64,000 bases of DNA from a virus. This document shows positions 18,986-47,918 of this stretch, piece after piece. Both the position numbers and the translations under genes were made by a program. The stretch spans positions 1-64,000 of the IMG/VR virus record IMGVR_UViG_3300010149_000002; one strand, written 5' to 3'. How positions within the stretch are numbered: the stretch's first letter is position 1; the number at the start of each line of letters is the position of its first letter. The notes below the pieces were generated by a model. It saw only the letters and a list, made by a program, of their open reading frames with translations. It ran no database searches and had not been told where the DNA came from.

Positions 18986-19202
18986 ATATGAGCAAATAAA
19001 ATTAGTTGAGGAGTCAGATTTTGTACTAAATGATATTTATTTAGGTTATTCAGAGTTTTGGGACAAGGTAAACGAAATTGATTTAGACCCTGAAAAACTT
19101 ACATTGTATGAAAAAGATATAGACATACTATATGATGCTCTAGTAGACTATATAAAGTTTAGAAGTAATTATAAAAATACATTAAAGGAGCTTATAAAAT
19201 GA
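18978..19202 (+). CDS. Small acidic early protein
   Basis: 74 aa, [23 protein letters not shown]..., acidic, helical. The ATG at 18978 overlaps the previous stop; an in-frame GTG four codons earlier is possible. It ends 4 nt into the pentapeptide-repeat gene. No family recognised. Confidence 0.6.
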
Positions 19203-19972
19203 TACAAATTAAAAATAGATTTACAGGTAATGTTATTAGAGAAGTTGAAAGTCTTAGTGAAGCTAATCTTAGGGGAGCTAATCTTAGGGGAGCTGATCTT
19301 AGTGAAGCTGATCTTAGGGGAGCTAATCTTAGGGGAGCTAATCTTAGGGGAGCTAATCTTAGTGAAGCTGATCTTAGTGAAGCTGATCTTAGTGAAGCTA
19401 ATCTTAGGGGAGCTGATCTTAGTGAAGCTAATCTTAGTGAAGCTAATCTTAGGGGAGCTAATCTTAGGGGAGCTGATCTTAGTGAAGCTGATCTTAGGGG
19501 AGCTAATCTTATGGTAGCTAATCTTAGTGAAGCTAATCTTAGTGAAGCTAATCTTAGTGAAGCTGATCTTATGGTAGCTAATCTTAGTGAAGCTAATCTT
19601 AGTGAAGCTAATCTTAGGGGAGCTAATCTTAGGGGAGCTGATCTTAGTGAAGCTGATCTTAGGGGAGCTAATCTTAGGGGAGCTAATCTTAGTGAAGCTG
19701 ATCTTAGTGAAGCTGATCTTAGTGAAGCTAATCTTAGGGGAGCTGATCTCGAAAAATGTAAAGGTATTCTATCATTTACTTGTGAAAAGCATTTAGGAAT
19801 ATATTTTAAATACGATAATGAATATTATTTTAAGATTGGTTGCATGACTAATACTGCTAAATGGTGGTTAGATAACTATAAAATAGTTGGTAAGATTGAA
19901 GAATATAGCGATAATGATATTAAAAAACATGGTATTATTTTAGAAGCTTATAGTAAAATAGAATTAGAATAA
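19199..19972 (+). CDS. Pentapeptide-repeat protein
   Basis: 257 aa. About 33 consecutive pentapeptides A(N/D)L(R/S)(G/E), roughly residues 20-184, build the right-handed quadrilateral beta-helix of this family. A globular tail of about 70 residues follows ([14 protein letters not shown]... ending [11 protein letters not shown]). In the best-studied members (MfpA, Qnr) the helix mimics DNA and binds gyrase; whether this one does is unknown. The DNA is nearly pure 15-bp repeats with only two variable codons, and larger blocks recur three times, so it has recently expanded by duplication. Confidence 0.9.
19259..19750 (+). repeat. 15-bp tandem repeats inside the pentapeptide gene
   Basis: About 33 copies of AGCT(A/G)ATCTTAG(GGG/TGA). 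A block coding for [20 protein letters not shown] occurs three times. All three forward frames are open through much of the tract because the unit is a multiple of three. Confidence 0.95.
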
Positions 19973-30376: not shown

Positions 30377-31378
30377 ATGCAATTTAGCAGTAAAAGAAGA
30401 GAACAAGCAGGTATTCGATCTCTTGGTGAGCTAAGAAGAAAGGGTAGGGTAAAGCGTGGAAGCGATCCTGATCTATTCGTTCATGGTACACCAGAGTTTG
30501 ATTGCTTGGTACATAAATGGAGTCGTAAAGAGGTCTTAGGAGTCATTGGAGACAGTGGTGTTGGTAAGTCAGAGGTTGTGTTACAAATGATAAAAGACAT
30601 CCTTGTATCGAATCCTGAGAGCTGTGGAGTATATGTATCACTAGAAATGACTGACCAAGAAATAGCAAAGCGTTGGTTTGAAATGACAGGTGACGATGAG
30701 GATTTAGCAGACAGGTTATTTATATTATCTAGGTATGACGATGAGGGTAAGTCTAGAGAAGGTATTAGTATGCGTTGGATTAAAGAGCAACTAAATATCT
30801 ATAAAGATGCAATTGGTGATATTAGTTGTTTTGCACTAGACCATTTGCATGTATTGGGAGAGAATGACCCAAGTACTTTAAATTCAATTATGGTTGCTGT
30901 AAAAGAAATGGCGGTTAACTTAAATTGTTTAGGAATACCAATGGCACAGGTCAATAAGAGTTCTGGAGGAAAGGGTGAGATACCTTTAGATGCCGACTCT
31001 GTACTTGCTTGTAGTCAATTTAAGTATATCTCTAATAACATCATACAAATACATAGACCTATATTGAGATTAGAGGAGGATGCAGGTATAAGTATACTAG
31101 GATGGGGATATGCTAAAATTAGAGAGGCTAATAAAGAGGACAAGGTAAAAAGAGGTCAGAATAAATTACTAGCTTATGATAGGGACTTAAGATGTATTCG
31201 TAAAATGACTACAGAAGAGTACACTATTTTTAAACTATATTATAATACTTTATTAGAAATGAAGTCTGCGGAAGAAAGAAGTAAGTCTTTTTCTTATGAT
31301 TTAACTAAAGAAGTAAAGGGCAAAGACGGTAAAGTTGTCCAGATTAAAGAGATATTTAGTGGAGATTCAGGTGAGTAA
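30377..31378 (+). CDS. DnaB-like replicative helicase ATPase domain
   Basis: 333 aa. RecA-fold ATPase: Walker A GDSGVGKS (58-65), the DnaB-family SLEM motif (about 88-91), Walker B ALDHLHVL (Asp155) and a MAQVNKSSG sensor segment near 194. It lacks the N-terminal DnaB collar domain, so it is short, as in phage RecA-fold helicases. It would unwind DNA ahead of the PolA-type polymerase. AGGAGG precedes the ATG. The end overlaps the HNH gene. Confidence 0.8.
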   Translation: MQFSSKRREQAGIRSLGELRRKGRVKRGSDPDLFVHGTPEFDCLVHKWSRKEVLGVIGDSGVGKSEVVLQMIKDILVSNPESCGVYVSLEMTDQEIAKRWFEMTGDDEDLADRLFILSRYDDEGKSREGISMRWIKEQLNIYKDAIGDISCFALDHLHVLGENDPSTLNSIMVAVKEMAVNLNCLGIPMAQVNKSSGGKGEIPLDADSVLACSQFKYISNNIIQIHRPILRLEEDAGISILGWGYAKIREANKEDKVKRGQNKLLAYDRDLRCIRKMTTEEYTIFKLYYNTLLEMKSAEERSKSFSYDLTKEVKGKDGKVVQIKEIFSGDSGE

Positions 31379-31883
31379 TGAGGTTTGGAAGGATATTATA
31401 GGGTATGAAGGTTTATACAAAGTATCGAACAAAGGTAAAGTGTATAGCCTTTTATCCAATAAAGAACTTTCTCAAAACAAAACAAATGGGAATGGTTATA
31501 TAATTTGTACATTGTGTAAGAATAAACAAAAGAAAAATAAATATGTACATAGATTAGTAGCCTACCATTTTGTTGAAAACAAAAATAACGATAATATAGT
31601 AAACCATATTGACGGTAATCTAAAAAATAATAATGCCGACAATTTAGAATGGTGTGACCAAAAAAGAAATGTTAGACATTATATTGAAAATGGTTTAAAA
31701 TCAGATTACGGAGTAAACTCTCCAAATACAAAATTAAATAAAAGAGATATATTAGAAATAAGACATTACTTAAAAGAAGGTAGTATCACACAAAAAGAAA
31801 TAGCTTTAATTTACGATGTTTCTCAGACTACAATTAGTCATATAAACCTTAACAAGAGACATGCTAATCGTGCGGAGGATTAA
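31371..31883 (+). CDS. NUMOD4-HNH homing endonuclease (GTG start)
   Basis: 171 aa. N-terminal NUMOD4 segment (EVWKDIIGYEGLYKVSNKGKV), central HNH core (VHRLVAYHFV, then VNHIDGNLKNNNADNLEW) and a C-terminal helix-turn-helix of the NUMOD1 kind (ITQKEIALIYDVSQTTISHI). This order matches free-standing phage homing nucleases. GTG at 31371 follows GGAG and overlaps the helicase stop, so it sits exactly at the helicase 3' end. Confidence 0.85.
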   Translation: MSNEVWKDIIGYEGLYKVSNKGKVYSLLSNKELSQNKTNGNGYIICTLCKNKQKKNKYVHRLVAYHFVENKNNDNIVNHIDGNLKNNNADNLEWCDQKRNVRHYIENGLKSDYGVNSPNTKLNKRDILEIRHYLKEGSITQKEIALIYDVSQTTISHINLNKRHANRAED

Positions 31884-37497: not shown

Positions 37498-37640
37498 TTA
37501 ATTGTAACAGACCAATTCAAGGGTTATGCTAAGAAGCGGTACATAATAAGTTACAGGTGTCACATACCTCCTCGATTCAGTAATACTAGTTATATTTTGA
37601 ACGGGTTTAAAAATTGTGAGTTGGTCGCTGACCATTTTAT

Positions 37641-37748
37641 CGAAATGTAGCTCAGTTGGTTAGAGCACCTGACTATGAAGCAAGCGACTAGGTAACGAAA
37701 TCGTGAGGCGGAGGGAGGTCGGTGGTTCGATTCCACCCATTTCGACCA
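37641..37748 (+). tRNA. tRNA-like gene with disrupted anticodon arm
   Basis: 108 nt. Acceptor stem CGAAATG/CATTTCG is perfect (7 bp), discriminator A and CCA are encoded. The D arm GCTC/GAGC and T arm GGTGG/CCACC with loop TTCGATT are perfect. But the anticodon region is about 31 nt too long: after CCTGA and a CTATGAA loop, the pairing strand TCAGG is missing; instead come about 36 nt including an ACGA/TCGT hairpin. It may be a decayed tRNA, a tRNA with an insertion, or a tRNA-like RNA. The anticodon cannot be assigned. Confidence 0.7.
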
Positions 37749-43968: not shown

Positions 43969-44493
43969 TTGACTGAAAAGAACAAAAACATAATAAACCT
44001 CATTGGTGATATTGATGATGATTTTTTTAGAAAACTTGCAGTTGGTATTAGTGAAGCAAACCAAAAAAAAGATTTAGAGATAGTTTTAATGAGTGATGGT
44101 GGAAGTGTAAGTGTGGCAAGAGGTGCATACGACCTCATCAGGACATTTGAAAGTAATGTTTACATAAAATGTTTTGGTGAGGTTTCATCCTCTGCAACAT
44201 TGGTCCTACAAGCCGCAGATTTCCGTATAATGTATCCTAATGCAAAACTAATGATACATGTCGGGGAAAATGGCGGAGGAGGCTCAGGGCATCCTCGTAA
44301 CGATGAGAGGCTTCAAGAACAGAACAAGATAGATGAGACTTGGATGGAAGATATATACCTTAAAAAAATAAGAGAAAAAAAGCCAAGATTCACTAGGAAA
44401 AAGATAAAAGATATGTTAGAGTATGATACATACCTAAATCCAAAGGAGTCTTTGGAGTTTGGTTTAATTGACGAAATAGGAGTTGTTAAATGA
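43969..44493 (+). CDS. ClpP-like serine protease (cytoplasmic, TTG start)
   Basis: 174 aa. Aligns with ClpP through GEVSSSATLVLQAA (Ser74 at the nucleophile position), LMIHVGENG (His97) and EYDTYLNPKESLEFGLIDEI (Asp154), so the full Ser-His-Asp triad is present. Length is close to mature ClpP. No ATPase partner is encoded nearby, so it would need host ClpX/ClpA or act alone. It is not in the head-gene block, unlike capsid maturation proteases. TTG at 43969 follows a weak ribosome site. Confidence 0.8.
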   Translation: MTEKNKNIINLIGDIDDDFFRKLAVGISEANQKKDLEIVLMSDGGSVSVARGAYDLIRTFESNVYIKCFGEVSSSATLVLQAADFRIMYPNAKLMIHVGENGGGGSGHPRNDERLQEQNKIDETWMEDIYLKKIREKKPRFTRKKIKDMLEYDTYLNPKESLEFGLIDEIGVVK

Positions 44494-47162: not shown

Positions 47163-47918
47163 ATGAAATTAATTTTATCGCTACTAATGGTTTGTAGCTT
47201 CTGTTTTGGAAAGGTAATCAATCTTACTGAAGAAAACAGCATTAACTTTAACAATAAATTTGATGGTCAGTTTGTTGCTAAAAAACAAATTGAAGCAGCT
47301 AACAAATGTTATACAAACGAAGGTAGTGATATCTATGTTGTATTATATACACCGGGGGGATCAGTACAAGCAGGTCAATTATTCTTTGATACTCTAAATG
47401 CTTTACCCTGTAACTTTCACACAATTACGATTTTCGCTGCCTCAATGGGATATCAAACAGTTCAAAATCTCAAGAATAGGTATATCCTACCGTCTGGAGT
47501 TTTAATGAGCCATAGAGCTAGTCTTAGCGGTGTAAGAGGTGAATTAGGAGGAGAGCTAGATAGTATCTTAGACTTCTTTAAACAAAGTATAAAAGAACTA
47601 GAAGTTACAGCATCTACTAGAGTTGGCATTAGTTTAGAAGATTACCAAAAAGCAATTTCAGATGAACTATGGATGACAGGAAACCAAGCTGTAAACACAA
47701 AGCATGCAGATGAGGTTGTATTAGTTAAATGTGATAAAAACTTTAAAGGTAGTTATGTACAGAAGTTTATGTCATTTTTTGGACCAGTAAACGTAGAGTT
47801 TGCTAATTGTCCTTTAATCGTATCTCCACTAAGTATTAAAAGCGGTAATCTTAAGATTATCAACCATGTAAATGATTTTTACACAAACATTCACAATTAC
47901 ATAACATTGGAGTTATAA
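47163..47918 (+). CDS. Exported ClpP-like serine protease
   Basis: 251 aa. Signal peptide (MKLILSLLMVCSFCFG) then a ClpP/SppA-like fold: YTPGGSVQAGQLFFD, FAASMGYQTV (Ser94), LMSHRASLSG (His117) and SDELWMTGNQAV (Asp167), giving the Ser-His-Asp triad. It is a paralogue in design of the cytoplasmic ClpP-like gene at 43969 but sent through the inner membrane. It has its own promoter. Possible jobs: degrade periplasmic or membrane proteins, or aid lysis or exclusion; none is shown. Confidence 0.8.
   Translation: MKLILSLLMVCSFCFGKVINLTEENSINFNNKFDGQFVAKKQIEAANKCYTNEGSDIYVVLYTPGGSVQAGQLFFDTLNALPCNFHTITIFAASMGYQTVQNLKNRYILPSGVLMSHRASLSGVRGELGGELDSILDFFKQSIKELEVTASTRVGISLEDYQKAISDELWMTGNQAVNTKHADEVVLVKCDKNFKGSYVQKFMSFFGPVNVEFANCPLIVSPLSIKSGNLKIINHVNDFYTNIHNYITLEL

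Follow-up and report, generated by a model that had tools for sequence, protein, structure and literature searches.

A phage tRNA-like gene with a conserved block in its anticodon arm, a possible relative in kind of the bacterial Y RNAs

Background

A combination of a tRNA-like domain with a protein-binding stem is known from YrlA and the other bacterial Y RNAs, which bind Ro60 (Rsr, TROVE) and are encoded beside RNA-repair genes in cells (PMC7790460, PMC7824862). Competitive inhibition of anticodon nucleases has been suggested as a role for the tRNA-like domain of YrlA (PMC7790460), and a review describes ROT/TROVE proteins in some jumbo phages and mentions that cellular organisms have a tRNA-like partner for them (PMC7824862). 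In the literature searched, largely without subscription papers and preprints, we found no description of phage tRNA introns or tRNA-embedded Y RNAs, nor of complete tRNAs with anticodon-stem modules or of RNA partners of DUF2828.

Here we analyze a tRNA-like gene in a stretch of 64,000 nucleotides (the window), positions 1 to 64,000 of IMG/VR record IMGVR_UViG_3300010149_000002. Like the Y RNAs it has a tRNA-like body and a (predicted) protein-binding module. Unlike YrlA it is a complete tRNA that includes the acceptor stem and CCA, its module lying in the anticodon stem; moreover, the record holds no TROVE gene, and the YrlA model RF02553 scores the gene at 25.3 bits, through the D arm and an upstream hairpin, against a gathering score of 69. 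By these comparisons the gene is not YrlA itself; it may be a variant of the Y RNA-like kind for which we found no earlier description. It shares with archaeal and eukaryotic tRNA introns a short block that interrupts the anticodon arm, but it belongs to a bacterial phage in which no ligase was found, its position and core differ, and block and tRNA are equally conserved. With tmRNA it shares a tRNA-like body in which the anticodon arm is replaced, but a D stem is present and a tag-peptide domain absent, and there was no tmRNA call by ARAGORN and none above the Rfam cut-off. The weak matches of the gene to YrlA, plastid ycf2 and permuted tmRNA were rejected, as they involve tRNA arms only.

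Results

Architecture of the gene

The gene occupies 37641-37748 on the plus strand and is the only tRNA-like gene of the 78,841-base record. Its full layout, with the extra block in brackets, is CGAAATG TA GCTC AGTTGGTTA GAGC A CCTGA CTATGAA GCA [AGCGACTAGGTAACGAAATCGTGAGGCGGAG] GG AGGTC GGTGG TTCGATT CCACC CATTTCG A CCA. A sequence-only reading had described perfect acceptor, D and T arms, an encoded CCA, C1-G72 with A73 and an anticodon region about 31 nt too long, all of which we recover. The 5' strand of the acceptor stem (CGAAATG, 37641-37647) forms 7/7 Watson-Crick pairs with 37738-37744, where the 3' strand CATTTCG is followed by A73 and CCA (to 37748). The D arm GCTC-AGTTGGTTA-GAGC (37650-37666) has 4/4 pairs and the T arm GGTGG-TTCGATT-CCACC (37721-37737) 5/5. 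Just 5' of the gene lies a terminator-like hairpin with a T run, TGGTCGCTGACCA TTTT (37622-37634, plus strand).

The Rfam tRNA model RF00005 matches the gene with 50.9 bits (E 5.6e-8 over 64 kb), and Infernal places 44 nt in the anticodon region where 13 are expected. In bacterial mode ARAGORN does not call the gene; with introns allowed it reports a tRNA-His(atg) with a 24-nt intron. The sequence-only reading also held that the 3' strand of the anticodon stem was missing, which stands in so far as no contiguous 5-bp stem with a 7-nt loop is encoded. On the other hand, removal of 31 nt after tRNA position 40/41 yields CCTGA.CTATGAA.GCAGG, in which 4/5 pairs form and A31.G39 is mismatched. On this excision the stem-loop up to position 41 (CCTGA CTATGAA GCA) would span 37668-37682, the block AGCGACTAGGTAACGAAATCGTGAGGCGGAG 37683-37713 (edges uncertain by 1-2 nt), and positions 42-43 (GG) with the variable loop AGGTC 37714-37720. 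The proline identity suggested by C1-G72 and A73 is not supported: the 5' half, D loop included, resembles (partly by inspection) tRNAs of the Lys/Arg type more than proline tRNAs, though C1-G72/A73 occurs in this gene and in its homologue.

The excision layout raises the main rival to the explanation that we prefer below, namely a decoding tRNA with a tiny intron, from which the 31-nt block would be cut at about 40-41/42 and the halves joined by a ribozyme or by host enzymes. We regard it as unlikely. The mismatch A31.G39 speaks against it, as do the resulting anticodon ATG, which is unexpected for a bacterial tRNA, and the length of the block, which is below the size of any known self-splicing intron. 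A group I intron was rejected, since Rfam gave no match and the block has 31 nt against a catalytic core of about 200 nt. No bulge-helix-bulge was seen at the splice sites by eye or in folds. A search of the record found neither RtcB nor a PF09414 RNA ligase, and splicing is therefore mildly disfavoured, although a host enzyme could act.

A conserved homologue in an unrelated phage

A homologue is present on the phage contig L087, with 80% identity over 106 nt (E 5e-20). The DNA similarity ends at the gene edges, and no protein similarity between the two phages could be detected. The homologue sits 5 nt after a normal tRNA-Asp, and 5' of this pair there is a stretch of about 400 nt (L087:6690-7100) that is non-coding and looks structured; Rfam gave nothing over L087 6400-7130 beyond the two tRNAs and weak matches to tRNA arms.

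The way in which the two genes differ is informative. In the acceptor stem only 5/14 bases are identical and 5/7 pairs have changed, while 7/7 pairs form in both; in the T stem one pair is altered on both sides, and the D arm is identical. These compensatory changes support the claim of selection on the tRNA arms. In the odd middle, 41/55 columns are identical (binomial 5e-9 against the acceptor rate); it is only at the paired positions 28 and 42, at a few isolated sites and at the insert tip that the two vary. The insert is conserved as AGC..TAGGTAAC..GTGANGCGGAR. A decaying tRNA pseudogene is therefore barely credible. The anticodon arm as encoded is unusable, which would fit decay, but the changes relative to the homologue are compensatory instead of unconstrained in all arms, and the insert is conserved. 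On this comparison the gene is not in decay, because an unrelated phage keeps the same gene with compensatory acceptor changes. The only relative has the abnormal arm as well, not a normal one beside random damage in all arms, and its conservation fits the earlier suggestion of a tRNA mimic or a tRNA with an inserted element.

Excision of 31 or 32 nt after 40/41 produces CYTGA.CTAYGAA.GCARG in both genes, with pair 28-42 covarying (C28-G42 in the window, T28-A42 in L087) and A31.G39 mismatched in both. That one boundary restores 4/5 stem pairs in the two genes, with a covarying pair, argues for an intron. The product loops would be CTATGAA in the window and CTACGAA (Arg) in L087, and the latter, which equals the loop of a real tRNA-Arg(ACG), favours a decoding product. 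A continuous extended arm with internal loops would fit both sequences too. Both middles fold independently into a small nested element, GC-AA-GC ... GTAA ... GU-GAN-GC, a fold drawn from two sequences; the predicted folding energy of the insert region is no better than that of shuffles, and thermodynamics supports neither side. A functional tRNA in which the insert stays as an additional arm, of the long variable-region type, and which still decodes would agree with the Infernal alignment of L087, which has a contiguous CTTGA.CTACGAA.GCAAG arm and the excess placed after it. The window arm, however, would then carry a second mismatch, C28.A42, mended only by bases past the insert, and we consider this very improbable.

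That the scaffold is intact and the altered part is the anticodon arm would also suit a decoy or inhibitor of host anticodon nucleases or of other tRNA-acting defences, the body being bound and the altered arm not productively cut; the sequence-only reading had likewise named bait for host tRNA nucleases as one option. The competitive-inhibitor role already proposed for YrlA (PMC7790460) points the same way. Nevertheless, no defence gene or nuclease was linked to the gene in this analysis, and a decoy leaves the conservation of the insert sequence itself unexplained. We judge it improbable.

The phage and its relatives

The carrier is a bacterial tailed dsDNA phage with portal, terminase, DNA polymerase A, ribonucleotide reductase and dUTPase. 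On one side of the gene lie the polymerase gene and a small ORF, on the other a gene for an uncharacterised protein. Another metagenome contig, L005, has an identical stretch of 440 bases that holds the gene, which excludes an error of a single assembly. In the closely related phages L003 and L004 there is no counterpart of the gene at the corresponding place. The host is probably a member of the Bacteroidota, considering that among cultured phages the nearest polymerases are those of Flavobacterium phages (47%). Other genes of the window include two differing Clp-protease-like genes (43969-44493 and 47163-47918), a NUMOD4/HNH homing-type endonuclease (31335-31883) that adjoins the replicative helicase gene, and a pentapeptide-repeat protein of 257 aa (19199-19972). 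The phage L009, related via its polymerase (59%), carries a tRNA-like gene at L009:418-565 in which about 70 nt are inserted around the D arm and a loop of just 4 nt closes the 5-bp anticodon stem; a probable nucleotidyltransferase gene lies directly 3' of it.

Collection scans with class-specific exact patterns, which could miss relatives, returned two lineages of what we call class A: the window gene (with its identical copy on L005) and L087. A scan of 85k bacterial and archaeal species gave no tRNA-like match; the insert was not found in plasmids, and in cultured phages only as a 19-nt coding match. A covariance model of the two members scored them at 130+ bits and ordinary tRNAs at 62.5 at most, and applied to 84 loci and to 395 Bacteroidota genomes (the latter without a positive control) it detected no further member. 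There are no stand-alone copies of the class A module in the window phage or in L087.

Viral tRNA genes with long anticodon regions

We scanned for tRNA arms that enclose at least 30 extra bases and obtained matches in at least 120 viral stretches; such genes are common and group into families by sequence. Among 124 distinct genes taken from fetched loci, 45 gain, on removal of one block, an anticodon stem of five perfect pairs together with T33 and a purine at 37, against 1.06 for shuffled inserts that preserved base composition only. That excision of one block elsewhere gives perfect arms with many anticodons is a further point for the intron. The commonest block site, 28/29, lies on the other strand of the stem, directly opposite the boundary of the window gene as we place it. 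The families have inserts with a GGTTACTT or GGTTAT ending, with a short hairpin followed by ACAGCAA, or of the GGTAAAGGACCAAAAC type; several genomes have more than one insert copy, each in different tRNAs. The GGTAAAGGACCAAAAC-type loop family (L055, L076, L115, L196, L204) has a conserved loop in the anticodon arm and no usable anticodon loop. Two further viral tRNA-like genes, on L179 and L193, have an apparent D-loop insert (CCGGGAATGAATACYGG...).

The window gene resembles the 28/29-insert tRNAs in its intact acceptor, D and T arms and in a single conserved, structured block that interrupts the anticodon stem at the same base-pair step. In contrast to theirs, its block comes in on the 3' strand (40-41/42), with a different core sequence. 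Membership of the 28/29 family was rejected on its best boundary, 40-41/42 with one mismatch; a GGTTACTT/GGTTAT or ACAGCAA core is absent as well, the core being GAAGCAAGC..TAGGTAAC..GTGANGCGGA.

Insert families and RNA-binding proteins

Insert families were assigned by eye from sequence, ahead of the protein searches. TROVE/Ro60 is encoded in 7/9 phages of the GGTTACTT/GGTTAT family and in 0/19 others (Fisher p=3e-5), and additional TROVE homologues are found on the loci L084 and L102, both of which hold such tRNA-like genes. The loci in which such inserts go with TROVE, these two included, are L035, L044, L047, L059, L073, L078, L084, L102 and L116. These inserts look as if Y RNAs had been built into tRNAs. 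The hairpin and ACAGCAA 28/29-insert family is associated with DUF2828: the domain is present in 13/18 phages (L024, L028, L040, L045, L074, L082, L091, L094, L096, L107, L113, L117, L129; one below the family cut-off) against 1/32 others (Fisher p=3e-7). Both tests count phages as independent, and gene content suggests that the ACAGCAA-family phages are mostly unrelated; many of the phage records are fragments, in which the absence of a protein means little. In seven otherwise dissimilar records of the ACAGCAA family, DUF2828 is the most widely shared protein family (5/7, the next reaching 3/7); two more clusters span five records, both made up of antisense frames of the DUF2828 gene. The insert RNA is thus a possible ligand for DUF2828.

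Modules in Bacteroidota chromosomes

The arm pattern matched 17/395 Bacteroidota genomes. In nine of these, the body of a tRNA-Lys(TTT) has a 28/29 insert that holds GGTCAA-n-TTACTTC (L228-L236, about 1400-2100 in match orientation), and the module is present in four to six copies per locus in total. All nine loci adjoin one conserved gene, distant kin (below cut-off) of the NCBI RING-domain family NF041916. In the two genomes checked the interrupted Lys(TTT) gene is an extra one, since they also have ordinary Lys(TTT) genes (three and two). In three more genomes (L237, L238, L240) there are tRNA-like genes with a AGTTCCTAT module repeated three to six times, which adjoins a second conserved gene for a protein of about 450 aa; upstream lie RtcB in L238 and PrfH (release factor) in L237. 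Free module copies beside a protein gene would be expected of a protein-binding module, not of an intron. An early idea took every insert for an intron; it ceased to be the main reading once the protein associations and the free module copies had emerged. That sister inserts follow RNA-binding proteins, and are found as separate copies too, counts against an intron in the window gene as well.

Discussion

The explanation that we prefer, and to which we give even weight for and against, is that the window gene encodes a functional, probably non-decoding tRNA scaffold with a retained protein-docking module, an adaptor like a bacterial Y RNA. Processing, stability and recognition by proteins that handle tRNAs would be the reasons why the tRNA body with its acceptor, D and T arms and CCA is kept, and the conserved, structured module of about 31 nt in the anticodon stem would be the docking site for an RNA-binding protein. 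During infection the RNA would then take a part in RNA handling or repair like that of YrlA, be it as adaptor, as decoy or as regulator. Retention of the insert in the mature RNA, the binding of a protein and a role for the phage are what we infer from the comparisons. A Y RNA-like adaptor is supported because scaffold and module are conserved together in two unrelated phages, because sister insert families track particular Ro60-like proteins, and because the Bacteroidota modules occur both inside tRNAs and as free copies.

Several points count against it. No TROVE (PF05731), DUF2828 or vWA metal-site motif protein was found in the 78.8-kb record of the window phage, which is possibly incomplete. 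The sequence of the module and its site (40-41/42, not 28/29) are unlike those of the TROVE and DUF2828 families. Finally, the class has only two known members, the fold rests on two sequences, and its stability is at the level of shuffles.

A more general proposal, which we put forward tentatively and with slightly more doubt than confidence, is that complete tRNAs serve phages and some Bacteroidota as carriers of interchangeable protein-binding modules in the anticodon stem, each with its own Ro60-like partner (TROVE, DUF2828 and others), and that the window gene is a separate member of this set. If true, phage tRNA genes that are missed or oddly called by the standard finders would form a set of RNA-protein adaptors, and DUF2828, a domain of unknown function, would gain a concrete candidate RNA ligand. 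The principle of the Y RNAs, tRNA mimicry combined with protein docking, would then reach from cells into many phages.
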